64,000 nt of DNA from Salinisphaera sp. (GTDB taxonomy: Bacteria > Pseudomonadota > Gammaproteobacteria > Nevskiales > Salinisphaeraceae), in contig NZ_PBYA01000012.1 of assembly GCF_002729955.1 (NCBI RefSeq), forward strand, positions 62,001 through 126,000, read 5' to 3'. A model generated the notes under the pieces. That model made no database searches and was not told the DNA's origin. It saw nothing but the letters and a program-made list of their open reading frames with translations. Positions 6,542 through 61,840 of this stretch are shown here, piece by piece; the first letter of the stretch is position 1; every line of letters starts with the position of its first letter. The translations under genes were made by a program, and so were the position numbers.

Positions 6542-6607
6542 CGCTGGAAAGGCCTGTCGAGCGCGTTGTTCAACCCGTGCACTTACGCGTGGCCATGCCG
6601 CGGAAAT

Positions 6608-6630
6608 AGCCCGGGACGCTTGCCCGGGCT
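6608..6630. terminator. Palindromic hairpin between convergent genes
   Basis: AGCCCGGG (6608-6615) pairs with CCCGGGCT (6623-6630) around a short loop. It sits between the converging PQQ dehydrogenase and SRPBCC genes and could serve both. No T-run is present on either strand, so the call is tentative. Confidence 0.45.
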
Positions 6631-6645
6631 GCGGGCAGGCGACGC

Positions 6646-7080: not shown

Positions 7081-7238
7081 GGCAATCTCCCGAATCGGTA
7101 AGGGCTTCGCTCGTCGCGCCTCGTGCGCACACGAGGCGATATGCCTCGACGCTTTCTCGCACCATAGCACTGAACAGAACGCGCGCCGGACGATAGACCG
7201 TAAGCCTTGTTCGGCGAATAACCGATTACGATAAGGCG

Positions 7239-8267: not shown

Positions 8268-8347
8268 TTGCAAGGTCGAGGCTGGCTGCGCTTACCGCAG
8301 CAGTCTTCGCTATCATGCGCAGCTGACTGTATCGACAGGGAATAATC

Positions 8348-9692: not shown

Positions 9693-9803
9693 GCGACCGC
9701 GGCGTTGGAGGATCGGGCAAACAATCGACAGCCCGCGATACGCATTGGCTTGCGAATACCACTATGCTCGGGGGTGTTCATTCATAGCCTGTATGGAGGC
9801 TTC

Positions 9804-12466: not shown

Positions 12467-12697
12467 ATCGACCACGAATGTTGAGTCCCGACAAATACAC
12501 GGCGCAATTATGCCTGTATCGGCCGGCACGGGCGGAATACGCCTGAATGTTGAGCTGCGCGGCGACTGTTCTATCATGGGTCTGTATTCGTGGTGTATCC
12601 CAGCGCCGCGCAAAGGCCGCGGCAGTGAAAACGGCTGGGGAGCCAGTGGTCTGGGTGCCGGACACGTCATCGCGTAACCACGCTTTTCGGAGACGCC

Positions 12698-20895: not shown

Positions 20896-21253
20896 GAGGC
20901 GCTGCGCGGTTGTGTATGGCCAGCGGGATTATAGGCAGGCAGCAAAGGCGTCGCTATCGAACGAGCCGATTAACCGGCATCAAAACAGCTGACTCTGTCA
21001 GCCGTTTTCAACGCTTTCAAAAATCAAGGCCGGCGCGTGTCCGCCCCTGATTTCCAATAGCTTCGCGGCCGTCGGCCGCGCCGAAGTGACTCAGCCATAA
21101 AGTGATGTGTGTTCGTTCAATTCGTAGCGGCGCGACCCATCTACCGGCCCGGATAGCCGTCGTAAAAAAGTGATCCCCGGTATGATTGCCGCGCCGGTGC
21201 GTATTGTCGGCGGGGGACGGGATAAACGACGGCACAGACGGGGACGGGTAGAC
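20896..21253. other. Intergenic region with a perfect-stem hairpin
   Basis: No gene is supported in these 358 bases between divergent genes. At 20982-21008 AAAAC and GTTTT flank GCTGAC/GTCAGC around a TCT loop, forming an 11-pair stem with one central mismatch that reads as terminator-like on both strands. It stands upstream of both neighbours, so it may end a short transcript or act as an operator. I see nothing further to interpret in the rest. Confidence 0.55.
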
Positions 21254-38617: not shown

Positions 38618-38945
38618 GGTCGGGACAGGGGCAGGGGAGCGATGGCGCGATTTTACCGGCTCTGCGGTCGCCCTGCGTCACGCGAGCAGATCATCAACGC
38701 CCGGCGCGGGCGCCTTTGGCCGGCGCTGTTCGTCCGGCGGCAAAGCAGCACGGTTCGTACGGTTTTCAGTTCTTCAGGATATCCGCCGCGACCTTGGCGA
38801 GCGCTTTGCGCCAGGGAGCGTCGTTTTTTTACCCACGCCGCGATTGGGGGTCTATCGATAAAAACTTAAACAAGTGCGCCGACGGCCGATAACCGACGCG
38901 TTGTACCGGGAAGGGCGTATGCGCCCTGTATCGCCAGGGAGAACC
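38618..38945. other. Intergenic region upstream of a GGDEF gene
   Basis: No gene is supported in these 328 bases between the divergent blc and GGDEF genes. The sequence is GC-rich with an AT-richer patch near 38845-38875. I see no clear repeat or operator. Confidence 0.4.
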
Positions 38946-39965
38946 ATGAGCCCAGCCTCGCCGGATTACGGCATGCCGCTGTCGTATCGCCATCGCCGTC
39001 ATCTGCTGCGCTTGCTGCTGACGGTGACCGCGCTGTTCGGCCTTGTTTTCGTTATCGTGAATCTTGGCGCCGGCCGCTATGGCCTGATGACGGTCGATCT
39101 GGCCATTACCGTGCTGGCCGTGGCGTTGCTGCCCGTGGTTCGTACAACCCAACGCCTGCGTCGCTGGTGTCTTTGCTATCTGGTATCCATCTATGCGGCG
39201 ACGCTGTATGCGCTCGCGCTGCCCACCACGTCGGTCACGGTATTCAGCTGGGTGATGGTGATGCCGCTCACCGCTCATCTGCTGCTCGGTCGCCGGATGG
39301 GCGGCCTATCCTCGGCGTTGTATCTCGCGATTGCAGCGGGCCTGTTCTTCTGGCGCTTCGGCCTCGATTCGGTTGTGGAAGCACCCGGCGCCACGGCGAA
39401 TATCGCAGGGGTGACGGTCTGGACCTACCTGTTCTCCTACTTTTACGAGGCCAGTCGCGAATCTGCGGAACGACAGCTCTCGCAACAAGCGCTCACCGAT
39501 TCGCTGACGGGGCTGCCCAACCGAGCGCAGCTGGAGCAGTCGTTCCGGCGCCTCGCAAACGCTGACGGGCATCCGATATCGGTATTGATGCTCGACCTGG
39601 ACCACTTCAAGGCCATAAACGACGACTACGGTCATGCCACGGGCGACGCGGTGCTACGTGAGGTCGGCCAGGCGCTAAGCGCACACACCCGCGCGCAAGA
39701 TCTGGCCTGCCGGCTGGGCGGCGAGGAGTTCTGTGTTCTGCTGCCGCATACCGACAACCGTGCGGCGCGGCATCTGGCCGAACGCCTGCGGGAGGCGATC
39801 GAAGCGCTGCACTGTCGACACAACGACTCCGTGCTTTCTCTGACGGCCAGCATTGGCGTCGCCAGCTCTACCGACCGCGCCGAACAGCTCGAGCCCTTGT
39901 TGCATATTGCCGACGAAAAGCTTTATGAGGCCAAGTTCAGCGGCCGCAACCGGGTGGTGGGTTAG
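38946..39965 (+). CDS. Membrane GGDEF diguanylate cyclase
   Basis: A 339-residue protein with five or six N-terminal helices and a GGDEF domain: LMLDLDHFKAINDDYGHATGDAVL, then active-site CRLGGEEFCVLLPH. An RxxD inhibitory site, RAQD, lies five residues before GGEEF, so it should be feedback-controlled by c-di-GMP. An AGGGA ribosome-binding site sits before the ATG at 38946. The PAS-GGDEF gene starts 115 bases downstream in the same direction. Confidence 0.9.
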   Translation: MSPASPDYGMPLSYRHRRHLLRLLLTVTALFGLVFVIVNLGAGRYGLMTVDLAITVLAVALLPVVRTTQRLRRWCLCYLVSIYAATLYALALPTTSVTVFSWVMVMPLTAHLLLGRRMGGLSSALYLAIAAGLFFWRFGLDSVVEAPGATANIAGVTVWTYLFSYFYEASRESAERQLSQQALTDSLTGLPNRAQLEQSFRRLANADGHPISVLMLDLDHFKAINDDYGHATGDAVLREVGQALSAHTRAQDLACRLGGEEFCVLLPHTDNRAARHLAERLREAIEALHCRHNDSVLSLTASIGVASSTDRAEQLEPLLHIADEKLYEAKFSGRNRVVG

Positions 39966-40080: not shown

Positions 40081-41070
40081 TTGCAGACGGATCGAAGAGG
40101 GGGCAGATTCAGTTATCTGAACCTTCGGGGCATTCAAATCGAAACGCGCGACCGGCGGGCAACGCAACTCATGGAAGAGGCGCTGGCAGCGCTGCCCGAT
40201 CCGGTGTTCGTGCTCACCGAAAGCGGGCGCTATGCCGCGATCTTCGGCGGTCCGGATCGGGCCCATTATCACGACGGCGCCTGTCTGGTGAATTTCAGTC
40301 TCTACGACGTGTTGCCGCAGGAACGGGCGGACTGGTTTCTCGCCGAGATCCGCGCAACGCTGGCCGCGGGCTGTCTGCGTATTGTCGAGTACGAGCTGGC
40401 AGCCGCCGAAGTGGAAGGCGTCGATGGCGACGGTCCGGCCGCCCCCATTCGTTTCGAGGGGCGGGTGCAGCCGCTGCGCTCGCCGGTCAACGGCGAGCGC
40501 GCGGTGCTGTGGCTGGCAAGCAACATCACCACCCGCCACGAGATGGAGCAACAGTTGCGTCGGCTCAGCGAAACCGACGAACTCACCGGGTTTCCCAACC
40601 GACGCCGCCTGATGGCGGCCCTCAACGAAGCACTCGCCCAATACGATACGCACAACAGCCGCATCGCGCTGCTGCTCATGGATATCGACCACTTCAAGAC
40701 GATCAACGATCGCTACGGGCATCCGGCGGGCGACGCGGTGATCTGTGCCATATCCAGCGCCTGCGGTGCGCGTATAAAACGCCGCGATCTGTTCGCTCGG
40801 CTCGGTGGCGAAGAATTCGCCACCGTGCTTTACGACATCACCGCGGGGCAGGCGCTTATCGTGGCCGAACGCCTGCGCAAGACCGTGGCCGATGTCTTGT
40901 TCGAGCCCAAACCCGGCGAGTCGCCGCGGATCACGGTAAGCATCGGCGTGAGCGTGGTTGGCCCCAACCGGCGCCGCACGCACGACCTGCTCAGTCAGGC
41001 CGACGCGGCGCTTTATATCGCGAAACAGGGCGGGCGTAATCGCGTGGTTCTGGCAGAGGATTATGACTAG
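40081..41070 (+). CDS. PAS-GGDEF diguanylate cyclase
   Basis: A soluble protein of up to 329 residues with an N-terminal PAS domain (ALAALPDPVFVLTESGRYAAIFGG, VNFSLYDVLP, EGRVQPLRSPV) and a GGDEF domain (LLLMDIDHFKTINDRYGHPAGDAVI, active site FARLGGEEFATVLYD). The RxxD inhibitory site is degenerate (KRRD), so feedback control may be weak. The start is uncertain: a TTG at 40081 or an ATG at 40171, which lacks a good ribosome-binding site. It follows the membrane GGDEF gene directly. Confidence 0.86.
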   Translation: MQTDRRGGRFSYLNLRGIQIETRDRRATQLMEEALAALPDPVFVLTESGRYAAIFGGPDRAHYHDGACLVNFSLYDVLPQERADWFLAEIRATLAAGCLRIVEYELAAAEVEGVDGDGPAAPIRFEGRVQPLRSPVNGERAVLWLASNITTRHEMEQQLRRLSETDELTGFPNRRRLMAALNEALAQYDTHNSRIALLLMDIDHFKTINDRYGHPAGDAVICAISSACGARIKRRDLFARLGGEEFATVLYDITAGQALIVAERLRKTVADVLFEPKPGESPRITVSIGVSVVGPNRRRTHDLLSQADAALYIAKQGGRNRVVLAEDYD

Positions 41071-42452: not shown

Positions 42453-43403
42453 CTAGCCGGCGAGCCCGAGATGCGTACGCAGCGCTGTGGCGATCCGGTC
42501 CATCGCGTTGCCGGTGGCCGCCAGCCAGGCCGGCATTTCGATAAAGCCATGGATCACGCCGGGGTAATGGGCATGGTCCACCTCGACGTCGTCATCGGCC
42601 AGACGGGCGGCATAGAGTACGCCTTCGTCCATGAGCACATCCGCGCCAGCGGTAATGACGAGTGCGGGCGCGGTGCCTTCCAGCGTTTGCGCCAGAATGG
42701 GCGAAACCCGCCAGTCGAGCGGGTCGGTATTGGCATCCACGCTGCGATGGCCGAACCAGGCCATGAGTTCGGCCGTAAGCGGCGGCACGTTGGCGTTGCG
42801 TCCCTTCGAGGGATACTGGCCGGCGGCTTCGCGCAGGTCGGTGGCCGGGTAGACCAACACCTGCAGGGCCAGCGGCCAGCCGGCGTCGCGTGCGGCAAGC
42901 GCGACCACGGCCGACAGATGGCCGCCCGCGCTGTCGCCGCCCACGGCCAGGCGCTGCGGATCGATATCGAAGGCGGCCGCGTTTTCCACCAGATAACCGT
43001 AGGCCGCGATGGCGTCGTCGGAAGCGGCCGGCAGGCAATGTTCTGGCGCCAGGCGATAGTCCACCGCCACGAGCTGACAGCCCGCGCGCTGGGCCAATTG
43101 CCGACAGATGCGATCGTGCGATTCCAGATCGCCCAGCACCCAGCCGCCGCCATGGAAATACACCAGCGTGGGGGCGGCCCCTGCGGCCAGTCCCTCGGGG
43201 CGATAACGCCGCGCCGCGACGCTACGGCCCTCGAGTGGCAGCTCATGCGCCACGATTTCGCCCATCGGCACCGGCTCGCCGCCGCTGGCCGCCAGCGTGT
43301 CGATATAGAACTGGCGCGCTTCGGCCAGACTCAGGTCGGCGAAGGAGATTTTCGCTTCGCGCATCCGCGCGACAACGCCGGCAACTTCGGGGGTGAGCGA
43401 CAT
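42453..43403 (-). CDS. HSL-family alpha/beta hydrolase (esterase)
   Basis: A 316-residue esterase. The oxyanion hole is YFHGGGWVLG, the nucleophile elbow VGGDSAGGHL, the acid in ITAGADVLMDEG and the His in YPGVIHGF. This is the hormone-sensitive-lipase-like group that splits short-chain esters. An AAAGGA ribosome-binding site precedes the ATG. It stands alone. Substrate is unknown. Confidence 0.9.
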   Translation of the reverse strand: MSLTPEVAGVVARMREAKISFADLSLAEARQFYIDTLAASGGEPVPMGEIVAHELPLEGRSVAARRYRPEGLAAGAAPTLVYFHGGGWVLGDLESHDRICRQLAQRAGCQLVAVDYRLAPEHCLPAASDDAIAAYGYLVENAAAFDIDPQRLAVGGDSAGGHLSAVVALAARDAGWPLALQVLVYPATDLREAAGQYPSKGRNANVPPLTAELMAWFGHRSVDANTDPLDWRVSPILAQTLEGTAPALVITAGADVLMDEGVLYAARLADDDVEVDHAHYPGVIHGFIEMPAWLAATGNAMDRIATALRTHLGLAG

Positions 43404-43709
43404 AGGGCAGTCCTTTCAGCCTGATGTATGCAGCGGGCTTGATAGCACGATTGGTCGGGTGCCTGCACGCCGTGCACCGCCAACCGCCCTCGGCCATGGT
43501 TGGGTTTGGGCGGCGAGTATCGCCCGGCAGGCCTGGCCGACAATCCCGGCCGCGCCACGTCATTACTGGCCGGCCGCTATGCCGGCCACGCGCATGAACC
43601 CCATCCGACCGTTGAACGTTACGGTCACGGCCCGCATCGTTCACAGGATCAAGTCCAGCCAGTAGTCCGACACGGCGCTGGCGATATCGTTTGCCGCGGA
43701 GGCATCGTC

Positions 43710-47187: not shown

Positions 47188-48029
47188 GAAAACTCCGGCT
47201 CAGCCGGATGGCCGCAGAACAAACACGCCCTGCGAGCTTCCCAAGCCCCATTACCCGACGCGCAAGCTAACGCTGTCGCGGCCGATAAGAAACGGTGCCG
47301 GCGCGTGTAAGCCGGGCAACGGCGTCACCTCGCACGGCGTATTGAGCCAGGCGCTCGAAACGGATTGCGCCTTACAGCTTTAGCGGTGGGCGCGAGTCGT
47401 CGCGCGCGCTGCGGGCGACAAGGCGCACGACAGCGCCGTTCTTGCGCAGCGAAATCCACGCCTGCAGGCCGCCGCCACAGCGAATTCGCTGCTCGTGTGT
47501 CGCTAGCCGATCGGCAGATAACAATAGTTACCAAGTCTGACTTCGGCGTGCATGCCGACGCTGGCGAATCCGGAAACGGTATGCGCCGCGTATTTGCTCG
47601 AAAACGGTGCAGCGTCACGGCGTAAACGTGTCATCCCCAATCTCCATTGAGCGTAACGTACGCAAAGCTACGGCACCGTCAGGCTCCGTCTGGCAAGCGG
47701 TGAACGCAGTATGCAAGCGGTTTCGCACGCGCATCGCAGGTCCGAGACCTGGGTGGCTGGCTCCGAGCTCTATGCGACTACATCGATGGCGCCCGCAGGG
47801 AATGGCTACGTCGTCCGCCCGTGCGGACCGCGGCTTATCGCGGCCGGGGGATATGCTGAGTAGCGATATAAAGGAGCGGTAATCAGCATTGCTGTGGCAC
47901 GCATGAAATAGGTTGAGAGCGCGCGGGCGTCGCTTAAAAAAGGGGACGCCTCTGCCGATATACGTCATACAAGCAGGCCCTGTGGGGAACCGGGTCGGTC
48001 AGGAATTGCGAACAGGGAGCCTCGCTTTC
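47188..48029. other. 842-base gap with no supported gene
   Basis: Short open frames on both strands (for example 47365-47625 and 47615-47968) have no ribosome-binding site, hydrophobic pattern or family feature. I see no long repeat or RNA gene. It is unusually long for this compact window; a decayed gene or an untranslated RNA cannot be excluded. Confidence 0.45.
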
Positions 48030-49169
48030 GTGATAAGACAACTCGAAGAGAACCGTCAGCGGGCGAACAGCGCGCTGGATTCCACTCACCGCGCCGCCCG
48101 GTCCTTCTGGCGCCTGATGCTCGGCACGTCCTGTATCGGCGTTGTATGCCATTCCTCTTTCGTACTTCTGTTCTACCTGAACGGCGTCACCGGACTGGCG
48201 CTGGTGAACGTCGGCAGCGTGAGTCTTTACGCAACATCCGCGTTTCTGCTCACTCGTGGCCTTGCCCCGTGGATCGCCTTTTCTTTCGTGATATTCGAAG
48301 TACTTGCCCACGCAATGCTGGCGTCGTACTGGGTCGGTTGGGAAACCGGGTTCTATTTCTACGCGATCCTCGCGATCCCAGTACTGATCGTTGCCGATTT
48401 TCAACGCCTTCCTACCAAGATTCTTTCCGTCACCGGCGCCACTATTTTCGTCATTGCCATGGATGTTCTGGTTCGTAGCCGGGCGCCGATTCACGCGCTG
48501 CCCGAGCACGTCGTGGACGGGCTGCACTATTTCAATCTGACAGCAGCGTTGTCGATCCTCATCTTTATGGTTGGCAACTATTTCTGGTTGATCAAACGCG
48601 CAGAAAGCCAACTGCATCTGCTCGCCACCACCGATTCGCTCACAAGTCTGCTCAACCGCCGCAGCATGGTTGACGCCTGGCGATTCGAAAAAGAGCGCCA
48701 GGAGAGTACCGGCGCGTCCCTGGCGCTGATTCTTTGCGACATCGATCATTTCAAGCAGATCAACGATACACATGGGCACGACGTAGGCGACCGCGTGCTG
48801 CAAACCGTGAGTGAAACCCTCGCGGCCAATCTACGCGAAACCGACCATCTCGCACGGTGGGGCGGGGAAGAGTTCATCATCATGCTTGTCGGTGCCACGC
48901 TCGATACCGCGGTACGTATTGCCGAGGATCTACGCGCGGCGGTCGCCGACACGGTCATCGAAACCGACCTGCTCAAAGGCAACGAACCATTGTCGGTCAC
49001 GGCCACCTTCGGTGTGAGCGCGATGCCGTCCGACCTGTCGGAGTCGCTTGAAGCGGCCGTGGCCCGCGCGGATGCGGCTCTGTACAACGGCAAACGTTCG
49101 GGGCGCAACTGCGTAAGCCGCCACGATCAGCAGGACGCGCGGGACATGGTCAAGGACGCATTCGTCTAA
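48030..49169 (+). CDS. Membrane GGDEF diguanylate cyclase
   Basis: A protein of about 379 residues with six predicted membrane helices and a GGDEF domain: LILCDIDHFKQINDTHGHDVGDRV and active-site ARWGGEEFIIMLVG. The RxxD inhibitory site RETD is five residues before GGEEF, so c-di-GMP feedback is expected. A GTG at 48030 with an AGGGAG about ten bases upstream is my choice; the frame extends to 47913. It is the fourth GGDEF gene of the window. Confidence 0.84.
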   Translation: MIRQLEENRQRANSALDSTHRAARSFWRLMLGTSCIGVVCHSSFVLLFYLNGVTGLALVNVGSVSLYATSAFLLTRGLAPWIAFSFVIFEVLAHAMLASYWVGWETGFYFYAILAIPVLIVADFQRLPTKILSVTGATIFVIAMDVLVRSRAPIHALPEHVVDGLHYFNLTAALSILIFMVGNYFWLIKRAESQLHLLATTDSLTSLLNRRSMVDAWRFEKERQESTGASLALILCDIDHFKQINDTHGHDVGDRVLQTVSETLAANLRETDHLARWGGEEFIIMLVGATLDTAVRIAEDLRAAVADTVIETDLLKGNEPLSVTATFGVSAMPSDLSESLEAAVARADAALYNGKRSGRNCVSRHDQQDARDMVKDAFV

Positions 49170-49448: not shown

Positions 49449-50468
49449 TCAGCGCGCAAGGCCGCGCGGTGTCTGCGCGTGGCGGCGAAAACGGGCGGGC
49501 GTTTGCCCTGTCCACCGTCTGAACGCATGCACGAAATTGGACACCTCGGAAAAGCCGAGCCGGTCGCTGATGTCTTCCTGCGTCAGCGCGCCCATCAGCA
49601 GCCATTGCTCGGCAAGCATACGACGCACCTCGTCAAGTAACTCGCGGTAGCCCGCGCCTTCTGCGGCCAGCCGTCGGCGCAGGGTGCGCGTGGTCGCCCC
49701 GAGTTCGGTAGCCAACGCGTCCATGCTCGGGAAATACCCCGGCCTGGCCAGCAGGCGCTCGCGCACGCGGGCTGCCATGCCGGCCCGATGGCCTGTTCGG
49801 GCCACCAATTGTTCGCACTGTTGTTCGCATAGATGCGCCGCGGCCGGGTTGGCATGGGGCAGGGGGCGGTCAAGGTAGCTTGTCGGAAACCGTGCCCGGT
49901 TGTGTGCTTGTTCGAACGTCGGGGTGACGCCGAATTGCGCCTCGAACGGGCCGGGCGGACGGGCCGGCAGGGTCAGCTCGATGCTCGACCAGGGCAGCGT
50001 GGCATCGAAAAGCTCGTGCTGGATCGTCGCGATGGCGCTCAGATCCCGGGCCAGGAGGTAGGCCCCGACGCCGGCCGGCAGATCGCCGTTGTCGATGATC
50101 AGCGCGGCCTCGGTTGCCTGCTCTTCGAGGGTGATGCGGTTGAAGGCATAGGTCAGATCGAGATAGCGCAAGCCAAGAATAACCGCGTCCCGAAAGGTTC
50201 CGCTACTGAGCAGGGCAAAACCCCAGACACCGTAGCTGCTCAGGTGATAACGCCGGCCCATGGCCAGGCCCAGTTCGGCGCGGTCGCCCAGCTCGCCGCA
50301 GAGATTGGCGACGACCGTGAGCTCCTGTTCACGCGTTACGAAGACGTCCGGTTGGCTTAACGAAGCGTCGCTGAGCCCGCTACCGGCAAGCAGCCGTGTC
50401 GTGGACACCCCGTGTTCAACGCCGAAGTCCACCTGCATGCGCACGCTGACGATGGCCCGGTCCGACAT
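49449..50468 (-). CDS. AraC-family regulator (arabinose-binding-like sensor)
   Basis: A 339-residue regulator. The N-terminal domain (GVSTTRLLAGSGLSDASLSQP, RYHLSSYGVWGFALLSSGTFRDA) is the type seen in OruR and related regulators of lipid and opine genes. The C-terminal HTH has MDALATELGATTRTLRRRLAAEG and ISDRLGFSEVSNFVHAFRRWTGQTPARFRR. The ATG at 50468 is preferred to one at 50492. It is divergent from the monooxygenase operon at 50575 and is its likely activator. Confidence 0.9.
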   Translation of the reverse strand: MSDRAIVSVRMQVDFGVEHGVSTTRLLAGSGLSDASLSQPDVFVTREQELTVVANLCGELGDRAELGLAMGRRYHLSSYGVWGFALLSSGTFRDAVILGLRYLDLTYAFNRITLEEQATEAALIIDNGDLPAGVGAYLLARDLSAIATIQHELFDATLPWSSIELTLPARPPGPFEAQFGVTPTFEQAHNRARFPTSYLDRPLPHANPAAAHLCEQQCEQLVARTGHRAGMAARVRERLLARPGYFPSMDALATELGATTRTLRRRLAAEGAGYRELLDEVRRMLAEQWLLMGALTQEDISDRLGFSEVSNFVHAFRRWTGQTPARFRRHAQTPRGLAR

Positions 50469-50574
50469 CGAGTATCTGTCCGATTTCCACAATTATTCGT
50501 CCGATGGTGCCATAAAAAGCGGCTCGCGAGTCGGCTAGAGTCGCCGAACAATAACGAACAATGAGGAGATGCGC

Positions 50575-52029
50575 ATGGCTGAAAGCCACGACGTTGCCAT
50601 TATCGGCGCGGGTTTTGGCGGCATAGGCATGGCCATTGCCTTGAAACAGCGCGGCAAGCATTCGCTGGTGATCCTGGAAAAGGAAGGCGAGGTGGGTGGC
50701 GCCTGGCGGGACAATACCTACCCGGGTGCGGCCTGCGATGTGCCCTCGCGGCTGTATTCGTTCTCCTTCGCCAAAAAATTCGACTGGTCGCGCCGCTTTG
50801 CGCCGCAGGCAGAGATCTTCGCCTATCTGCGTCAATGCGCCGACGACTACGGTCTGCATCCGCATCTGCGTTTTAATACCGAGGTAGAACAGGCGCGCTT
50901 CGACGAAGCGGCCGGGCTCTGGCATATCCGCACCCCCCATGGCGAGATCCACGCCCGCGTGCTCATCACCGCCACTGGCCAGCTCAACCGGCCCGCCTGG
51001 CCGTCCATACCGGGGCGCGAGCGTTTTCAGGGGCCGGCGTTCCATAGCGCACGCTGGGATCACGACGTGGATCTCGTGGGCAAAACGGTGGCGGTGGTGG
51101 GCACGGGTGCCAGCGCCATTCAGTTCGTGCCCGAAGTCGCCAAACAGGCAAAAAAGGTGCGGCTGTTCCAGCGCTCCGCGGCCTATGTGATTCCCAAGCC
51201 GGACCGTGTCTATTCCAGCGCCGAACAGAAATTGATGGAACGGATGCCCCTGCTTCAGAAACTCGATCGGGGCCGGATCTATGCCCAGAACGAGGCTCGC
51301 GTGCTGGGCTTCACCGCCGTTCAGTCGGCGATGGGCTTCTACCAGCGCCTGTTCAAACGCTATCTCAAACGCTGCATATCGGATCCGCAGCTGCGCGAGA
51401 AGCTCACCCCGGATTACCCGCTGGGCTGCAAGCGCATCCTCATTTCCAATGACTATTTCCAGGCCATCGAACGCTATGGCATCGAGGTGCATACCGGCGG
51501 CGTGGGCGCGATCACCGAAACCGGTGTTGTGGACGCCAAGGGTCAGCATCACGAAGCGGACGTGCTGATCTACGGCACGGGTTTCCAGGCCACTGATTTT
51601 CTCGCGCCGATGACCATCCTCGGGCGTGAGGGCCGTGATCTCAACGATGCCTGGCGCGACGGGGCCGAAGCCTATCTGGGCATCAACGTCCATGGCTTCC
51701 CCAATATGTTCATGCTTTACGGGCCCAACACCAATCTGGGCCACAACTCCATCGTCTATATGCTCGAATCGCAGATTGCCTATGTGATGAGCGCGCTGGA
51801 GGTGCTGGAACAGGGCGGGCATCGCTTCATGGACGTCGACGCCGACGTGCAGGATCGCTTCAACAGCGATCTGCAAGAGCAGATCCGCCATACCGTCTGG
51901 GACAAGGACTGCCACAGCTGGTACAAGACCGAAAGCGGCAAGAACACCAACAACTGGCCGGGGTTCACCTTTACCTACCGGCGCCGTACCCAGACGCTGG
52001 ATACCCGCGATTATGAGCTGTCCTCGTGA
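50575..52029 (+). CDS. Flavin-binding Baeyer-Villiger-type monooxygenase
   Basis: A 484-residue FAD/NADPH enzyme. It starts with AIIGAGFGGIGMAIAL (FAD-binding GxGxxG), carries the Baeyer-Villiger fingerprint FxGxxxHxxxW as FQGPAFHSARW near residue 150, and has a second nucleotide motif VVGTGASAIQFVP. Such enzymes insert one oxygen next to a ketone to form an ester. GGAG precedes the ATG at 50575 at a good distance; the earlier ATG at 50569 has a poor one. It is the first gene of a BVMO-esterase-SDR operon. Confidence 0.9.
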   Translation: MAESHDVAIIGAGFGGIGMAIALKQRGKHSLVILEKEGEVGGAWRDNTYPGAACDVPSRLYSFSFAKKFDWSRRFAPQAEIFAYLRQCADDYGLHPHLRFNTEVEQARFDEAAGLWHIRTPHGEIHARVLITATGQLNRPAWPSIPGRERFQGPAFHSARWDHDVDLVGKTVAVVGTGASAIQFVPEVAKQAKKVRLFQRSAAYVIPKPDRVYSSAEQKLMERMPLLQKLDRGRIYAQNEARVLGFTAVQSAMGFYQRLFKRYLKRCISDPQLREKLTPDYPLGCKRILISNDYFQAIERYGIEVHTGGVGAITETGVVDAKGQHHEADVLIYGTGFQATDFLAPMTILGREGRDLNDAWRDGAEAYLGINVHGFPNMFMLYGPNTNLGHNSIVYMLESQIAYVMSALEVLEQGGHRFMDVDADVQDRFNSDLQEQIRHTVWDKDCHSWYKTESGKNTNNWPGFTFTYRRRTQTLDTRDYELSS

Positions 52030-52939
52030 AATCGGCGGGGCGCCGCCAAGTGCAATCCAGCGCCTGATCGCCGCCACGCTGCGCGCCCTGCTGAAACCCT
52101 TGCTGATGCCCGCGTTCACGGTGCGCGCGCCGCTGAGCCTGCAACGACGCTGGCTGAAAGCGGTATCCAGTATCACGCTGCCAGCACGAGGCGTGGTGCG
52201 CTTCAACGCCCACATCGAGTCGGTGCCCGTGGAATGGGTCGGCGATGGCCAGGCGCTGACGCTGCTGTATCTGCATGGCGGCGGGTACGTCAGCGGCTCG
52301 CCCGGCACCCACCGGGCGCTGACCACCCATCTGGCCAAACGCCTGAACGCCACCGTGGCGGTGCCGGGCTATCGGCTGGCGCCGGAACATCCCTTTCCGG
52401 CCGCGTTGGACGACGCGGTCGCGGTGTATCGCGGCTTGGTGGCGCAGGGCCACGATCTGCGCCGGCTGGCCATTGCGGGCGATTCTGCCGGCGCGGGCCT
52501 GGCGCTGGCGCTGCTGCGACGTCTGCGCGATGACGCCACGCTGCCGGCCCCGGCGGCCGGGGTGCTGCTCTCGCCCTGGCTCGACCTGAGCCTCGAACAC
52601 ACGCCGCACCGTATGCCGGGCGAGGTAATGCTCAATTGGAAATGGCTCGATGCCGCTGCCCTGAGCTATGCCGGCGATGACCGAGCGCGCCCGCAAGTCT
52701 CCCCGCTGCGGGGCGATCTCAACGGTCTGCCGCCGCTGCTGATTCAGTGCGGCAGCGACGAAATTCTGCGCGGCGACAGCGACCGCCTGGCCGCCGTCCT
52801 GGCCGACAGCGACACCCGTGCCCGCTACCAGCTATATCCGCAGCGCTGGCACGTCTTTCAGTTGCACGCCGGCGTACTCGAGGATGCCGATTGGGCCATC
52901 GACGCCATCGCCGACTTCCTTGCCCACGAACAAAACTAA
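52013..52939 (+). CDS. HSL-family esterase of the ketone operon
   Basis: A 308-residue alpha/beta hydrolase. The oxyanion hole is LYLHGGGYVSG, the nucleophile elbow IAGDSAGAGL, and the C-terminal His is in QRWHVFQLHAG. Its start overlaps the end of the monooxygenase by 17 bases, showing tight coupling. The obvious role is to split the ester made by the Baeyer-Villiger enzyme. The substrate ketone is unknown. Confidence 0.9.
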   Translation: MSCPREIGGAPPSAIQRLIAATLRALLKPLLMPAFTVRAPLSLQRRWLKAVSSITLPARGVVRFNAHIESVPVEWVGDGQALTLLYLHGGGYVSGSPGTHRALTTHLAKRLNATVAVPGYRLAPEHPFPAALDDAVAVYRGLVAQGHDLRRLAIAGDSAGAGLALALLRRLRDDATLPAPAAGVLLSPWLDLSLEHTPHRMPGEVMLNWKWLDAAALSYAGDDRARPQVSPLRGDLNGLPPLLIQCGSDEILRGDSDRLAAVLADSDTRARYQLYPQRWHVFQLHAGVLEDADWAIDAIADFLAHEQN

Positions 52940-52958
52940 ACGAACCCCGGGAGAAACC

Positions 52959-53717
52959 ATGAAACGTATCCTGATCACCGGTGCCGCCAGCGGCATCGGG
53001 CTGGCCACCGCGCACCGCTTCCATGCCCGCGGCTGGTACGTGGGGTTGCTGGACATCGACGCTGACGGCCTGGAAACAGTCTGCGCTGCGCTGGGCGAAC
53101 GGATTTGGTGCCGGGCCCTGGACGTACGCGACGCACACGCCTGCCAGGCCGCCGCCGACGAGTTCGCTTCCCAGCAGGGCGGTATCGACGTGCTGTTCAA
53201 CAGCGCCGGCGTGCTGCGCATGGGCCCGCTAGAAGAAATCCCCGAGGCCGACCACGCCCTGATGCTCGACATCAACGTACGCGGCTTGTTGAACATGTGC
53301 CGGGCCGCGCTGGCACATCTGAAGCAAGCGCCGAACGGGCGCGTGCTCAACATGAGCTCGGCCTCCGCGCTCTACGGCGTGCCGGATATGGCGGTCTACT
53401 CGGCCTCCAAATTCGCGGTGCGCGGCCTCACCGAAGCGCTCAACCTGGAATGGCAGCGCCACGGCGTCACCGTGCAGGATCTGATGCCCCCCTTCGTGGA
53501 CACCCGCATGGTGCGCGGCCAGCAATGGCAGGCGCCCGTGGTCAAACGCATGGGTGTGAAGCTCAGCGCCGACGACATCGCCGAGGCGGCCGAGAAAGCC
53601 CTGCAGGGACATCGCGTCCACACGCCGGTCGGGCTGTCGTTTCGGCTTACCGTGCTGATGGAAAAACTCACGCCGCGCAGCTTCACCCGGGAAGTGATGC
53701 GGCTATTGAGCCGCTAA
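52959..53717 (+). CDS. SDR-family oxidoreductase of the ketone operon
   Basis: A 252-residue SDR. The cofactor motif is ITGAASGIGLATAH, FNSAGVLRMG stands for NNAG, the catalytic Ser is in NMSSASALYG and Tyr-Lys in VYSASKFAVRG. A GGGAGA ribosome-binding site precedes the ATG, 19 bases after the esterase stop. It probably oxidises an alcohol to the ketone or handles a product of the pathway. Confidence 0.9.
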   Translation: MKRILITGAASGIGLATAHRFHARGWYVGLLDIDADGLETVCAALGERIWCRALDVRDAHACQAAADEFASQQGGIDVLFNSAGVLRMGPLEEIPEADHALMLDINVRGLLNMCRAALAHLKQAPNGRVLNMSSASALYGVPDMAVYSASKFAVRGLTEALNLEWQRHGVTVQDLMPPFVDTRMVRGQQWQAPVVKRMGVKLSADDIAEAAEKALQGHRVHTPVGLSFRLTVLMEKLTPRSFTREVMRLLSR

Positions 53718-55514: not shown

Positions 55515-57560
55515 TTAGATTTGATCGGGAAGTTTAGATAAGTGACGCATCACCCAACCGTAAGCGTTATTAAACTCGTCAATTTCTTCAGGCGAAACCG
55601 GTTTGGTATGCGCATCCACTCGCCGCGCCGTGTTTATTGTATCCATATTCATGGTAAACCATTTCTTCTTATTTTCAAAAAGCGCAGAAAAGACGTTCCA
55701 GTTATATAAAATTATTTCGCGCAAGTCGAGAAAGTAGAGCTCATTCATTACTTTTTGAGGCGTTGTCCCGACAAATAACGCCGCTGGGTCTGGCCGATCT
55801 GACCTTTTCTTAAGTCCGTCCGAAAGAGCCTTAGATATCGTTTTGTTATCCCAGTTATAATGGACCCCGAAGTAAAAAATTATAGTTCTTCGAAGCTTGG
55901 TCTCGACCTCAACACGTTTTTCAAAAAGAAGAGCTAAAGTAGCTTTGTCTGGAACTTCTGGCAGTAGCTCTGGAGGCATGTCTGAACGCATAAAAGGCGT
56001 GATTTCTTTTTGGTACCCTTCTCCATGTGAATTAAGAAACTCTTTGACGTCACCTATTGCGAATTCAGCGCTATTCTCAAGTTTTAGAATTCCATAGCGA
56101 GCAAACTTTATAAGCTTTTCTTCGCTTTGCTCCACATAATCTTTAACAAAATCTTTATCGCCCTCAGCTAGTATCTGCAGAAGTTGGTATTCCTCCGGGT
56201 ACCACCAGACTAGAGAAAGCAGTATGTCCCTAATCGGCTGAGATAGCCTCGCTGAAATCTGATTTCTTATAGCCTCGAAATCCTCGATCTCTATAAAAAT
56301 CGCTTTTTCGGGATCGGCGGTGTATTTTGTTCGCCACAGCTCGCTGCATGCGATTCGAATTAGGTACGGATGTCCTCCAAATGTATCGGTAAGGTAGTCG
56401 TAAACCTTTTCATCGAACTTGACGCCGGCATATTTACCTAATGTTCGAACCATCTGGCGAACGCTGCTGCGTTCGAATGGCTCTAGATAGATCGCTGGGG
56501 CGATTTGAAATATCGGGTTAGTAATTGAGTTAAATGTAGGAGTTTCGAGTGCCGCGGGGTTAACCCCAGCAATAATAAAAACAAGTTGCCCTTTTGATTC
56601 CTGATGTGCCGCGCGAATGGTTTGCCAGAATGGTAAGAAATCCGAATCCCAATGCTGACCAAGTGCGCCGCTAATCGTTGGGGTTATGTACTCAACTTCG
56701 TCCAAGAGGATTGCTATGCGCGTTAGACTCCCTGATGCGATCAGAGTCTGTATATCCGATGAAAAGCGCGTGCTGGCATTATTCGAGTCATATTCAAGCG
56801 TCAGATCCGCGTTGCGTTTGAAATGGAATTTCAATCTTTTCTTCAAACGCTCCGCGATATTTTCGAGTACTTGCCACCATCTTCCCGAATGTATGCCTGG
56901 GCTATGGCAATCAATGTACTCAGTAAGGGTATTGTAGTTGTCTACCCGGCGTTCGAATGCCCGTAATACCGAAGTCTTGCCGGTTTTGCGAAGTCCAAAA
57001 AGTCCGGAGTTCTGGGCGCTTGTTGTTGATCTAATGACTAGTTCTTGAACTAGCTGCTCCCGGCCGAAGAAATATCTATCCGATGTGATCGGAGAGGACA
57101 TGCCGAAAAGATCGATTTGGCCAAAATGCTCAGCTATCCGCGATCGGACGAAAAGCGTTCCCCGGGAACTGCTATCGAGCTCTGCGGCGCTAAACGGAAC
57201 GATTACCCGATCCGGATCGGTCGCTACTAGGTTTTCTGCGTCAGCTTGGTCGCCGGCGTGTACCAACAAATAGAGTACTCGGTCTAGGCGATGTTTAAAG
57301 TCGGGATTACGGCTAATATTTTCTATCGCGGTTAATACTCTGGCGTCTGTTTTTGCATGTGCGGAAAAAATTACTAGTATTTCCTGAGCTAGTCCGAACC
57401 GCTCACGCGTATGTTTTTTAGGCGCAGCGATCCAAAAAGCTTTTTCGCCTTGAGTTTTTCCGAAGGTGATATCGAACGCTTCGTCGAGGCGCGCGGCGAG
57501 TTTCGCTTCGTCCGGCCTGTCGGAAAAGTAACTTCTGAATGCTTGGTCGTTAATAGCCAT
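55515..57560 (-). CDS. AAA/STAND ATPase with C-terminal HEPN-like domain
   Basis: A 681-residue soluble protein in three parts. Residues 1-155 are an alpha/beta domain of unknown type (FWIAAPKKHTRERFGLAQEI, DRVLYLLVHAGDQADA). About 160-420 is an ATPase with P-loop GLRKTGKTS at 189-197 and Walker B IAILLDEVE at 282-290, preceded by FFGRE as in STAND/ORC-like ATPases. The last 130 residues are helical with RRVDAH (R646 to H651), the Rx4H motif of HEPN RNases, placed as in Swt1-like HEPN domains. Codon use and base composition are much more AT-rich than neighbours, so it is imported. A defence function is inferred. The ATG at 57560 is preferred over a TTG at 57566. Confidence 0.72.
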   Translation of the reverse strand: MAINDQAFRSYFSDRPDEAKLAARLDEAFDITFGKTQGEKAFWIAAPKKHTRERFGLAQEILVIFSAHAKTDARVLTAIENISRNPDFKHRLDRVLYLLVHAGDQADAENLVATDPDRVIVPFSAAELDSSSRGTLFVRSRIAEHFGQIDLFGMSSPITSDRYFFGREQLVQELVIRSTTSAQNSGLFGLRKTGKTSVLRAFERRVDNYNTLTEYIDCHSPGIHSGRWWQVLENIAERLKKRLKFHFKRNADLTLEYDSNNASTRFSSDIQTLIASGSLTRIAILLDEVEYITPTISGALGQHWDSDFLPFWQTIRAAHQESKGQLVFIIAGVNPAALETPTFNSITNPIFQIAPAIYLEPFERSSVRQMVRTLGKYAGVKFDEKVYDYLTDTFGGHPYLIRIACSELWRTKYTADPEKAIFIEIEDFEAIRNQISARLSQPIRDILLSLVWWYPEEYQLLQILAEGDKDFVKDYVEQSEEKLIKFARYGILKLENSAEFAIGDVKEFLNSHGEGYQKEITPFMRSDMPPELLPEVPDKATLALLFEKRVEVETKLRRTIIFYFGVHYNWDNKTISKALSDGLKKRSDRPDPAALFVGTTPQKVMNELYFLDLREIILYNWNVFSALFENKKKWFTMNMDTINTARRVDAHTKPVSPEEIDEFNNAYGWVMRHLSKLPDQI

Positions 57561-57595
57561 GTGCAAGCTTCGCTAGTTTGTGAGTCGATGCGGGG

Positions 57596-57928
57596 CTAAT
57601 TGGGGTCAGGTCTTGCGTCGTGCGCCGATGCAATGCTACCCGCTTCAGTAAGCGCCCCAAGTACCGCATCGGGCCGACGATTTAACACGTTGAGCAAAAC
57701 TCTAGCTGGCCCATGCGGCTGTCTATCGCCGCGCTCCCAATGCCGCAACGTCCCGAGACTGATACCGAAAGAAGCGGCAAACTGACGCTGGGTCATACCA
57801 ACCTTAACGCGCACAGCTTTAACGTCTGTAGCCGACATCTCGTGTACGACAACGTCATTTGGCTTATTCGCTTGATGCGCGATCGCCTGTTCAAGACCGG
57901 CCTTGATACTTTCAAACGCGTCGCTCAT
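57596..57928 (-). CDS. HigA/NadS-type antitoxin (HTH)
   Basis: A 110-residue protein. The helix-turn-helix is VKAVRVKVGMTQRQFAASFGISLGTLRHWERGDRQPHG, the classic antitoxin XRE type of the NadS/HigA2 group. It follows the toxin gene by 2 bases, on the same strand. It should neutralise the toxin and repress the pair. Confidence 0.88.
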   Translation of the reverse strand: MSDAFESIKAGLEQAIAHQANKPNDVVVHEMSATDVKAVRVKVGMTQRQFAASFGISLGTLRHWERGDRQPHGPARVLLNVLNRRPDAVLGALTEAGSIASAHDARPDPN

Positions 57929-57930
57929 GT

Positions 57931-58263
57931 CTAGACTCCTGCTGTCTTGGTGAGCAGTGCGACAAGCTGAGCAAGTGCGTTGCGTTCAGCTTGAGAGATA
58001 TTGGTCTTTTCGTTCTTGCCGAAAATCGTAAGCAGATAAAGGGGTATGCGTTCGTCGTGAAAGTAGTAGACGACACGAACGCCACCGCTTTTGCCGGATC
58101 CGTCGGGAGCCCATCGAAGCTTTCGTATGCCGCCGGTGCCTCGCATGAGGTCGCCGGCTTTTGGATGTTCTGCCAGATACGCGATTAGCGCTTGGTAGTC
58201 AGCATCACCGATCAACTTGCGAATCTTGCGCGAGAACTCCGGCGTCTCGGCTACGGTCTGCAT
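57931..58263 (-). CDS. RelE/HigB-type toxin
   Basis: A 110-residue protein of the RelE/ParE fold: FSRKIRKLIGDADYQALIAYL, then GIRKLRWAPDGSGKSGGVRVVYYF, ERIPLYLLTIFGKNEKTN and the final helix. These toxins cut mRNA on the ribosome. The toxin-first order is that of HigBA. The ATG at 58263 is chosen over an upstream TTG. Upstream sequence is degraded helicase remnant. Confidence 0.88.
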   Translation of the reverse strand: MQTVAETPEFSRKIRKLIGDADYQALIAYLAEHPKAGDLMRGTGGIRKLRWAPDGSGKSGGVRVVYYFHDERIPLYLLTIFGKNEKTNISQAERNALAQLVALLTKTAGV

Positions 58264-58836: not shown

Positions 58837-59775
58837 TTATTGCGGCGGACGGGGGTGTGGATACTGTGCGACGGTCGGGTTTCGTCCGCTGCGGCTGCGG
58901 ATTCGATGGGCGCGCTGCAGCAGGGCGTCAAGCAACATATGCGGGACGGTGAGCGCGGCCAGGCCGATGAACACGGCGCATAGCAGGGCGTCATCTGGCG
59001 AAATGCCGAGGCAGGCGGTCAGCAATATGGCCGCGAGTGCGCCGGCCGCAATTACCGCTAGCGACGACAGCAGTGCTTCGCCTAGAGCCCGTGTTCGTGC
59101 ATGGCAGAGCCCGGCAAGCACGCAATGGGTCTGGCGCAGGGCGTGCAGGGCACCGTAGTAGACGGCGAAGAAGGCGAGGGGTGGTAGGGTCAGGGCTAGC
59201 AGCCAGAGCAGGGCGAGTTCGAGGCTGGCGCGATCGCGGTGGTGCAGGCAGCGCTTGGCGAACAGGGCCAGCCCGGCGACGCCCGCGAGCGCGGCGGCGG
59301 CGACGATGAGGCTGACGTCGGCGCCGGCGGTAATCTGATTGAGTATTTCGGTGACGCGGTCGGAATGGCAGAGCGTGGGCGCGCCGATGGTTGTAAGGCC
59401 GCCGGCCCAGGCGGCCAGGCGGTCGTCGAAGCGCCAGTCGCCGGCGAAGTGCCAGGCGGAATACATCAGAAAGCCGGCCAGCGCGAACCGCGGTTGCCAC
59501 CACCAGAGGGCGATGCAGGCGGCGACCAGGCCGAGGTAGACCACGAAGAAAACGGCCAGCGGGCCGCGCCGGGTCAAGCCGAGCTCGATACGGGCCCGTG
59601 GCAGGTCCAGGGCGCCGTGGGGCATGCCGAACAATACGGCGATGGCAAGTGCGGTCAGGATGGGCACGGAGCTGTCGCCGCCCGAGCCCGTGAGCCACAG
59701 GGCGACGCCCAGTACCGCGGCGGTGGCGACCGCGAACACTGCGGTATGGCGTTTGAGTGCTACCGGCGGCTTCAT
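58837..59775 (-). CDS. blh: Brp/Blh-type beta-carotene 15,15'-dioxygenase
   Basis: A 312-residue membrane protein that cuts beta-carotene into two molecules of retinal. FGMPHGALDLP, YSAWHFAGDWRF, GALHALRQTH and LTVPHMLLD supply the iron-binding His residues. About seven helices are expected. Its ATG overlaps the crtY stop (ATGA at 59772-59775). It is the last gene of the carotenoid operon. Confidence 0.9.
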   Translation of the reverse strand: MKPPVALKRHTAVFAVATAAVLGVALWLTGSGGDSSVPILTALAIAVLFGMPHGALDLPRARIELGLTRRGPLAVFFVVYLGLVAACIALWWWQPRFALAGFLMYSAWHFAGDWRFDDRLAAWAGGLTTIGAPTLCHSDRVTEILNQITAGADVSLIVAAAALAGVAGLALFAKRCLHHRDRASLELALLWLLALTLPPLAFFAVYYGALHALRQTHCVLAGLCHARTRALGEALLSSLAVIAAGALAAILLTACLGISPDDALLCAVFIGLAALTVPHMLLDALLQRAHRIRSRSGRNPTVAQYPHPRPPQ

Positions 59776-60947
59776 TTCGGCCCGATCAGGCCGGCTGCGA
59801 ACGCCGGGCGTGCACAGGCGGTGATGACGGCGATTCGGTCCAGCAGGCTGGGGCGGTCGTCGAGGAACCGCACCAGGCGGGCGGGCGGACAACCTGCGAA
59901 CAGGTCGGCGAACAGGCGCGGCGCGAGGTCGGGCCGACGACGGATGACCCGCAGGAACAGCCGGTCCATGCCGCGTTCGATTGGCCCACCGGGGTCGGGG
60001 GCGGCGCTGGGCAGGTAGCCGTGGCGGCAGAGAGCGTCGGCAAGCTGCTGGCACTGACGCCGAATGCGGCGAAAGGCGTAGCCGGTCGCGCCGCGGTTGA
60101 CGCCCGCGCGCTGGCCGATGGCGAGATAACGCCCGGGGTGGGCCGAGCGCTGCGGCGTGGTGACCGTCATGGGCAGGCTGGCGGTTTCGCTGCGATACAC
60201 GCGCATCGGGCGCGCACCGCAGCGCTCGCGCAGCTCGGCGCCCAGCCAGGTTTGCAGGGAGTTCCATGATGGGGCGGCAGCCGAAAAACGCGTGACCTCC
60301 ACCAGGGCGCGACGCTCGGTAAACGGCAGCAGGTAGACGAAATCGACGCCGTCGCCTGCTATCGCACCGGGCTTGAATTCCATTAGGCCGGCCACGCGCG
60401 GGTTGAAGACAGCGGCCTCGCTTTCGACCTCGTAGCCAAGAAAATGCTGGGCATAGGCCGGCGTGGGCGCACGCCGCCAGTCCAGGCGGGCATCGACCGC
60501 CCGGCGGGCCGCGACCGTTTCTATTACCGTGGGATTGATGGCGCTCCGTAAGCGAACCTGTACGTCGGCCGCGCTGAAATCCAGGTCGACAACCTCGCGC
60601 CCCATGGCAAGCCGCTGGTCGGGGTCGGATGCGATCCGCTCGGTCTGCGCCTTGAGCCAGGCGCCGGCGTCCAGACTGACGTACTGCCAGCCCGGGGCGC
60701 TGCACTTGACGGGTGGGCGCTCGCCGTCGCGAACCTGCCAGCGATCCCAGCGGCCTTGTTCGCCCGGCCAGGGGTCGGGCTCGTTGGCGGCGCTCCAGAA
60801 GCTCCAGGTGCGATCGGTGGTGTATTCATGCCGCGCCTCGAGTACGAGCACGCTCAGCCCGCGCCCGGCCAGGGCTTCGCAAAGCGTCAGCCCGGCCAGC
60901 CCGCCGCCGAGAATGACCAGGTCCACGGGCTCGGCACGTGCGGTCAT
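59772..60947 (-). CDS. crtY: Lycopene beta-cyclase CrtY
   Basis: A 391-residue FAD-dependent enzyme that closes both ends of lycopene to form beta-carotene. LVILGGGLAGLTLCEAL is the nucleotide motif, then DRTWSFW, the family block FMEFK-like LMEFKPGAIAGDG, YLLPFTERRALVEVTRFS and AGVNRGATGYAFRRI. It overlaps crtB by the ATGA at 60944-60947. Confidence 0.93.
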   Translation of the reverse strand: MTARAEPVDLVILGGGLAGLTLCEALAGRGLSVLVLEARHEYTTDRTWSFWSAANEPDPWPGEQGRWDRWQVRDGERPPVKCSAPGWQYVSLDAGAWLKAQTERIASDPDQRLAMGREVVDLDFSAADVQVRLRSAINPTVIETVAARRAVDARLDWRRAPTPAYAQHFLGYEVESEAAVFNPRVAGLMEFKPGAIAGDGVDFVYLLPFTERRALVEVTRFSAAAPSWNSLQTWLGAELRERCGARPMRVYRSETASLPMTVTTPQRSAHPGRYLAIGQRAGVNRGATGYAFRRIRRQCQQLADALCRHGYLPSAAPDPGGPIERGMDRLFLRVIRRRPDLAPRLFADLFAGCPPARLVRFLDDRPSLLDRIAVITACARPAFAAGLIGPK

Positions 60948-61840
60948 CGCGAAGCGTGCCGACGGGCGAACAGCGCATCGGTGATGCCCACGAGCGCCAG
61001 CCCGATTTTTCGCCAGACGGGCACGACCGCCCGCGGCGCGTGCGGGTTGGCCTGCTGGCGGCGAATAACGCCGCCAATGCCCTGATAGAGACGTGCCGCG
61101 ACGGCGACGGCCAGGCGCAGGCGTAGCGGCAGCGCGATGAGGCCGGCGCGCCCGTCGCGATACAAGCCGTCGGCACGATCCAGAATGGCGCGGGTCGCGG
61201 AGGCTGCGGCGTCGACCGCGCCCGGCTCACGCCCCGCGATCTCGGCGGGGGTTGCCGGGCAACGCGTGGCGGGCAGATAACGCCGCCCGCGTACGGCGTC
61301 TTCTCGCACATCGCGAGCGATATTGGTGAACTGCATCGCCCGGCCGAGGGCGATCGCCTGTGGCCGATGGACGGATGGGATATCAAACAGGGCACAGACC
61401 ATTTCGCCGACCGTGCCCGCGACGGCGTCCGCGTAGCGATCCAGGTCGGCATCGTCCTCCAGACACAGCGGGTCGAGGTCCCGGCGCAGACCGTCGAGCA
61501 GGCGGCCGAAGGCGTCGAGGCCGGCGGGTGTCTCGTTGAACAGCGACTGGGCTTCGAAAGCGATGCGGTCGCGGGTCGATTCGTTGTACAGATCGGCCCG
61601 GATTGCATCCAGGCGAACACGCCCGACGTCGGGCGGCGCTTCGTCGGCCAGATCGTCGGCGGTTCGACAGATGGCATACAGCCGGGCGATATCATCGCGT
61701 TCGTGACGCGGCATGAAGCGGGCCGCCGGTGCAAAGCTGCGGGCGTGGCGATCCATCAGCCGCTGCGCGGCCTCGGCGTTCGGCCCGCGTACGACGAGTA
61801 CCCCGGGCGCCGGGCGTCGCTCTTCCCTTAGTTCGCTCAC
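60944..61840 (-). CDS. crtB: Phytoene synthase CrtB
   Basis: A 298-residue head-to-head prenyl synthase joining two geranylgeranyl diphosphates to phytoene. The first Asp-rich motif is CRTADDLADE, the second NIARDVRED, both binding magnesium and diphosphate. It overlaps crtI by the ATGA at 61837-61840. Confidence 0.94.
   Translation of the reverse strand: MSELREERRPAPGVLVVRGPNAEAAQRLMDRHARSFAPAARFMPRHERDDIARLYAICRTADDLADEAPPDVGRVRLDAIRADLYNESTRDRIAFEAQSLFNETPAGLDAFGRLLDGLRRDLDPLCLEDDADLDRYADAVAGTVGEMVCALFDIPSVHRPQAIALGRAMQFTNIARDVREDAVRGRRYLPATRCPATPAEIAGREPGAVDAAASATRAILDRADGLYRDGRAGLIALPLRLRLAVAVAARLYQGIGGVIRRQQANPHAPRAVVPVWRKIGLALVGITDALFARRHASR

Follow-up and report, generated by a model that had tools for sequence, protein, structure and literature searches.

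A stretch of 64,000 nucleotides from Salinisphaera sp. (contig NZ_PBYA01000012.1, positions 62,001 to 126,000; hereafter the window) contains, at 49449-53717, a gene for an AraC-family regulator and, divergent from it, three genes in a row for a Baeyer-Villiger monooxygenase (BVMO), an esterase of the hormone-sensitive lipase (HSL) type and a short-chain dehydrogenase/reductase (SDR). Most likely the gene set splits fatty ketones, which secondary alcohols would supply, to give an acid plus an alcohol, and there is a good probability that the operon as a whole is a substrate-induced catabolic set for open-chain, probably medium- or long-chain, secondary alcohols and ketones. The chemistry of such gene sets has been described (PMC12753306, PMC10045523, PMC6304351, PMC5407406; papers given by PMC number are cited here from parts of their text). 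The enzymology thus appears ordinary and of a known functional kind, and what would be new is the predicted arrangement of regulator, operator and promoter, which seems to span phyla. We lean towards regarding the switch and the BVMO as the conserved unit, that is, an AraC protein with PF12625, a 21-bp tandem operator and the monooxygenase, into which hydrolases (also as fusions) and dehydrogenases are plugged. This unit appears to extend from gamma- and betaproteobacteria to Mycobacteriales, and most of the gammaproteobacterial and Mycobacteriales loci also have the predicted −10 element at 38 bp.

Enzymes of the Operon and Their Proposed Pathway

All four genes lie where the sequence-only reading had placed them, and Pfam confirms their families: PF12625 and PF12833 for AraC, FMO-like/Pyr_redox_3 for the BVMO, PF07859 (180.8 bits) for the esterase and PF00106 for the SDR. 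The features of the locus are as follows.

49449..50468, − strand: AraC-family regulator, Arabinose_bd N-terminal domain and HTH_18, divergent from the BVMO operon
50477..50504, + strand: predicted operator TGTCCGA-N14-CGTCCGA, a direct repeat of 21 bp lying some 9 bp upstream of the ATG of AraC
50536..50541, + strand: TAGAGT, predicted to be the −10 element for the BVMO operon, 38 bp from where the second half-site starts
50575..52029, + strand: type I BVMO, 484 aa (ATG 50569 is an alternative start)
52013..52029, + strand: overlap of the BVMO and esterase genes, 17 bases
52013..52939, + strand: HSL-type (Abhydrolase_3) carboxylesterase, 308 aa, with HGGG, GDSAG, an invariant Glu (SDEIL) and His (WHVF)
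52959..53717, + strand: classical SDR, 252 aa, above the cut-off of NCBIfam NF006123 (PRK08267), with Asp after beta-2

The BVMO carries GAGFGG, GTGASA, GGAWRDNTYPGAACD and FQGPAFHSARWD, that is, two Rossmann motifs and two BVMO fingerprints in the letters familiar for these enzymes. Type I BVMOs are described as requiring such a fingerprint (PMC9044951). The best PDB matches are cyclohexanone (CHMO), steroid and phenylacetone (PAMO) monooxygenases. In the esterase, the HGGG oxyanion motif (HGG(G/A) in HSL esterases), the GDSAG nucleophile, and the acid and His that complete the triad of these enzymes are in place; Ser, one Glu and His are unchanged across 13 aligned rows (the window and 12 relatives), and the triad acid is read as this invariant Glu because the preceding Asp varies. 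The SDR possesses TGxxxGIG, the catalytic Ser and YxxxK, its catalytic residues are kept in an alignment with 17 relatives, and an Asp follows the second beta strand in 18/18 aligned rows, a hallmark of NAD-type SDRs which fits alcohol oxidation. The regulator has both the Arabinose_bd domain and HTH_18 of the AraC/XylS family, and its scores stay below cut-off for each of the ten NCBIfam equivalogs listed.

The AraC reading frame can be extended to a TTG at 50492, which a mechanical reading takes as its first start (49449-50492). In Salinisphaera UBA6602 (genome G006), however, the copy is 339 aa long and starts at the ATG equivalent to window 50468, which makes 49449-50468 the better reading of the gene. 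The SDR frame is listed from 52818 to 53717, with ATG 52959 as the likelier start. The esterase and SDR genes are 19 bases apart, and this gap together with the 17-base overlap upstream makes a single transcript likely. The overlap had been taken earlier as a sign of a joint task; a first-start gap of −17 between BVMO and esterase recurs exactly in 10 of the 27 listed rows with an adjacent esterase on the same strand, namely the window, the G006 locus (counted as both L072 and L132), L133, L135 and L137 (Alloalcanivorax/Alcanivorax), and L113, L114, L115 and L120 (f11, another family). In several other rows the first start runs far upstream and need not be the true one. Judged by similarity, the window has a second esterase of the same type (42456-43415, − strand), which differs from that of the operon as had been claimed (74 bits between them); it lies about 8.6 kb off, leaving one esterase in the operon.

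In the proposed pathway, the SDR would oxidize R-CHOH-R′ to a ketone with NAD+, the BVMO would insert oxygen beside the carbonyl with NADPH and O2 to form an ester, and the esterase would release an acid and an alcohol, which from a 2-ketone would be acetate and a primary alcohol; these products would pass to general metabolism. The same order of steps had been put forward by the sequence-only reading, and the trio being kept together, its intact motifs and the NAD-type SDR all agree with it, the direction of the SDR being one that we infer. The accompanying claim of a full route for alkanes finds no support in the form given: the operon starts at the secondary alcohol or ketone, and no alkane hydroxylase was found in it or among the 40 Pfam-scanned open reading frames (ORFs) of the window, a scan that did not include a search for LadA. 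An AlkB-like protein (by His motifs that we take to be those of AlkB) and one P450 are encoded on other contigs of the genome, so alkanes could enter the operon only via enzymes encoded elsewhere. By eye, the P450 gene adjoins an ORF resembling an AMP-binding ligase.

A Tandem Repeat Between Regulator and Monooxygenase

Aligning the intergenic DNA of the window with that of f11 revealed shared blocks, which together make up TGKCC-N16-TGKCC, directly repeated every 21 bp or two helical turns, and AraC-type proteins are known to bind repeats of such spacing. The repeat is present at 9 or 10 of 10 positions in 29 of the 31 loci with a divergent AraC gene, L075 and L084 being the misses, compared to 7 of the 104 loci without one. 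The 31 loci contain some redundancy (L072/L132 are one place, and four more pairs are near-identical); among the seven high scorers of the other group, L263 and L274 have an AraC gene about 2.2 kb upstream, and for some of those 104 loci the flank was 1.5 kb only, so that an AraC gene could be overlooked. When periods from 14 to 32 were scanned, 21 bp stood out, with 14-20 and 22-32 giving 1-13 of 31. Per-sequence shuffles equalled the score of the window's own operator in 4/100, so the lone site is weak and it is the comparison across loci that counts. A refined pattern, built including the window site, matches the window only at 50477-50504, and in the whole genome it has six matches including that one, compared to one for the reversed control pattern. 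Since the motif was discovered in the same sequences in which it was counted, 15 new Mycobacteriales loci are the sole out-of-sample check: all five with a detected AraC gene score 10/10, and of the other ten, L232, L240, L247 and L252 score 10, L234 scores 9 and five score 7-8.

The distance to the predicted promoter appears conserved as well. Counted from the first base of the second half-site, a TAnnnT hexamer lies at 38 bp in 17 of 23 loci, against 0/23 at any other offset from 24 to 53; it is missing at 38 bp in L038, L087, L090, L093 and L102, and L081 shows CAGAAT instead. Six rows had been dropped to give this table of 23, and the site of L077 was set by hand, taking the copy beside the promoter as the first-found 10/10 match sat further upstream. 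On this spacing the second half-site would lie just upstream of the −35 position, from which we infer an activator layout; repeat and spacing together predict a dedicated switch of activator type. In the mechanism we propose, the divergent AraC would bind the tandem 21-bp repeat, which adjoins the AraC start and precedes the operon promoter, and in its inducer-bound form would recruit RNA polymerase to the −10 box 38 bp from the second half-site, with transcription expected to begin near 50548. The AraC, earlier linked to the operon by gene position, is now tied to it by a conserved predicted operator and −10 element, although the regulator is not obligatory, as loci L133-L138 described below lack it.

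In the literature covered, with subscription papers mostly outside the search, no Baeyer-Villiger enzyme with an AraC-family direct-repeat operator was found, and there is weak evidence that the site is hitherto undescribed. The operator turns AraC control from a positional guess into a base-level, directly testable prediction; if the switch and the BVMO are indeed the conserved unit, the operator would mark ketone and secondary-alcohol operons in genomes and supply ready-made ketone sensors, and it may help to sort BVMOs of unknown role by their regulator.

Conservation, Distribution and Alternative Readings

For comparison, 60 regions from relatives, including two that surround BVMO paralogues of the Salinisphaera genome itself, 7 plasmid-collection regions, 67 loci from named genomes and 26 Mycobacteriales regions were fetched. 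The order of divergent AraC, BVMO, esterase and SDR was found in Salinisphaera sp. UBA6602, whose contig matches at 98%, and in eight of nine fetched f11 loci (L113-L120), where the BVMO is 56-58% identical; the ninth, L129, has a BVMO of 49% identity and a different SDR type, with no AraC or esterase detected. Twelve f11 genomes have a match, three of them not fetched; PA2096-PA2099 of P. aeruginosa were considered as the f11 counterpart, an identification not used here. The trio also stands without AraC in L133-L138 of Alloalcanivorax/Alcanivorax and in L091, which is the same locus as L138, with BVMOs of 75-78% identity. The upstream DNA of Alloalcanivorax scores 7-8 of 10 for the operator, and the best AraC match in three Alloalcanivorax/Alcanivorax genomes reaches 164 bits (37%), whereas the f11 neighbour in G118 scores 323 bits (49%). 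Since AraC and operator are missing here, the enzymes do not depend on the switch. At these loci the two were either lost or never present, with the trio kept and the 17-base overlap retained in three of them, and they offer a natural test of the purpose of the switch.

In a tree of 91 BVMOs (built by a quick method with SH-aLRT as the sole support measure, leaving out two duplicates and all rows below 340 bits) the window groups with G006 and Alloalcanivorax with full support. Around these 91 loci, homologues of the partner genes concentrate within 1.5 kb of the BVMO: esterases occupy 25 of 174 flank bins there vs. 1 of 457 farther away, SDRs 42 vs. 13, and AraC 29 vs. 13 of the same bins. 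Within the 31-row BVMO clade the esterase occurs in 23 rows, and divergent AraC and SDR in 19 each. Two unlike SDR types adjoin these BVMOs (184-557 and 75-107 bits to the window SDR), and gene order is altered in other relatives. Six of the 91 tree rows are labelled as BVMO-hydrolase fusions, three of them at E<1e-10; one fusion is annotated on a Burkholderia glumae plasmid as a gene of 2466 bp, and Deinococcus has an annotated alpha/beta hydrolase-BVMO-SDR series with 4-bp overlaps whose hydrolase is unmatched by the window esterase. In L295 and L296 of Mycobacteriales, three BVMOs and one HSL-like esterase stand in tandem.

A BVMO match at E<=1e-100 is present in 40 of 398 genomes of a phylum sample, and among 14 genomes of the genus (three under 90% complete) the operon copy is confined to G000 and G006. 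Identity falls to 55% for the next best BVMO of Salinisphaera, compared to 75-78% for Alloalcanivorax/Alcanivorax, which belong to another family; Alloalcanivorax, a genus known for oil degraders, has the closest trio that was found beyond Salinisphaera. This distribution, taken by itself, suggests horizontal transfer of the operon; the upstream GGDEF gene gives no usable anchor for an empty-site comparison outside G006.

Several observations weigh against a substrate-induced set for open-chain ketones and secondary alcohols. The sequence itself yields no substrate evidence, and the open-chain assignment is proposed because of a statement on the Pseudomonas fluorescens DSM 50106 enzyme (PMC5407406) and of MymA and EthA assays (PMC9044951). 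By Pfam scan the operon is without alkane hydroxylase, acyl-CoA ligase or aldehyde dehydrogenase. Generic promoter and terminator scans gave nothing useful, that of the AraC-BVMO intergenic region returning no promoter. AraC, esterase and SDR occur all together in only 12 of the 31 clade rows, and beside the BVMO of L082, L083, L088, L121 and L122 not one of them was detected. The six loci L133-L138 keep the trio with neither a detected AraC beside it nor an operator, and L291, a VirS-like locus with divergent AraC and BVMO that falls outside the 31 by the 340-bit cut, scores 8/10 and is a further miss. Upstream of 10433 in L291, TGTCR words appear in the VirS-like/MymA-like intergenic DNA, two of them 21 bp apart by eye, perhaps a related operator with a different half-site.

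The SDR might also act after the BVMO, oxidizing the alcohol freed by the esterase or reducing an aldehyde, with the ketone taken up or made elsewhere. The SDR is the last gene of the operon and the looser partner in the 31-row clade (19 rows to 23 for the esterase), and GMC, FadD or ALDH genes adjoin the BVMO in relatives; however, both SDR types beside these BVMOs keep the NAD-type Asp in aligned rows, and SadC of the sad cluster is described as using secondary alcohols (PMC10045523), so we hold this later role to be unlikely. A pathway for cyclic ketones or terpenoids, in which the BVMO would form a lactone for the HSL enzyme to open, is improbable: the best structural matches are indeed CHMO-type and HSL enzymes reportedly can act as lactonases, yet the CHMO match is split in two stretches and general to the superfamily, and no ring-pathway genes were seen near the operon. 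The DSM 50106 BVMO, moreover, is reported to take open-chain aliphatic ketones and none that are cyclic or aromatic (PMC5407406). For cyclic ketones, which the sequence-only reading named among the substrates for growth tests, there is no evidence.

The envelope operon virS-mymA-lipR of M. tuberculosis has the same layout, with an AraC-type VirS, the BVMO MymA and the esterase LipR (PMC10272862, PMC13234193), but that the window holds its Gram-negative version is very improbable, as the VirS-linked BVMO is 27% identical (126 bits) to that of the window, the operator score there is 8/10, and neither esterase nor SDR was detected at that Mycobacteriales locus. Equally improbable is an AlmA-like enzyme, a flavoprotein that itself attacks long-chain alkanes: AlmA has been termed a long-chain alkane monooxygenase, but the ADP1 enzyme reportedly proved to be a BVMO and the hydroxylase claim is questioned (PMC12449030), and the esterase and SDR beside the window BVMO fit ketone chemistry. 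Catabolism of open-chain ketones and secondary alcohols remains the likeliest reading.

Neither neighbour of the operon is metabolic, the upstream one encoding a GGDEF protein and the downstream Pfam-named one, 0.8 kb away, a VirJ-like protein. In all, the window encodes four GGDEF proteins (21170-22393, 38874-39965, 40081-41070 and 47913-49169, the last with 45 matches in the genome). A second alcohol-oxidizing neighbourhood at 4436-11180, about 40 kb from the BVMO operon, includes a PQQ-type alcohol dehydrogenase (4436-6541) and an aldehyde dehydrogenase (9705-11180), flanked by AraC-type regulators at 909-2072 and 11528-12943. The gene at 14520-15968 codes for a protein bearing a phospholipase domain of Tle1-like type, and adjacent lycopene cyclase and squalene/phytoene synthase genes at 59772-61840 look like a carotenoid cluster. 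A 683-aa ORF with weak AAA/STAND matches (55515-57566, − strand) lies in a dip of G+C (0.486 at 56001-58000, compared to 0.61-0.70 across most of the window) and may be a recent arrival.

Comparison With Known Systems

The likeness to virS-mymA is one of layout only. In M. tuberculosis, VirS (Rv3082c), MymA (Rv3083) and LipR (Rv3084) belong to a system (PMC10272862, PMC13234193) whose seven-gene operon ends in FadD13, which sets it apart from the Salinisphaera trio. In a single genome out of 249 from Mycobacteriales, the DNA-binding domain is VirS-like at E<=1e-30 (69%); the AraC protein there scores 75 bits, and the Mycobacteriales BVMO matches listed are 44-55% identical to the window BVMO. 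The virS-mymA operon is also said to have an SDR as its third gene. Orthology of the window BVMO to MymA was rejected at the 27% identity given above, a comparison made with the VirS-linked relative rather than the named M. tuberculosis gene, and orthology to virS-mymA thus appears largely refuted. VirS relatives also occur on plasmids; in the one such Mycolicibacterium record examined, the annotated neighbours include no BVMO.

Thalassolituus oleivorans resembles the Salinisphaera operon in combining a BVMO (TOL_0709) and an esterase (TOL_0906), both raised on C28 alkane, for which a subterminal route was proposed; in contrast to the operon, the two are non-adjacent by number, and the text cited from PMC6304351 mentions no divergent AraC. 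In an Acinetobacter record, L037, AraC adjoins a series of BVMO, SDR and esterase, after which comes an FAD oxidoreductase that matches GMC weakly, the BVMO being 55% identical.

A secondary alcohol degradation pathway of P. fluorescens DSM 50106 was reportedly described by Kirschner et al. in 2007, and its BVMO is said to come from a cluster of similar make-up; compared by description, the likeness is a BVMO for aliphatic open-chain ketones in a secondary alcohol pathway. The sad cluster of NyZ410 (Yin et al., 2022, via PMC12753306 and PMC10045523) consists of SadC, described as acting on secondary alcohols (PMC10045523), the BVMO SadD and the esterases SadA and SadB, and converts 2-ketones to a primary alcohol and acetate. 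By family, a gene of secondary-alcohol type, a BVMO and an esterase stand together in both, but sad has two esterases where the Salinisphaera operon has one, in the order BVMO-esterase-SDR, and on this description-based comparison the operon is classed as working like sad rather than as a sad cluster. Its function would accordingly be best matched, by analogy, with the known secondary-alcohol and ketone clusters, those of sad and DSM 50106.

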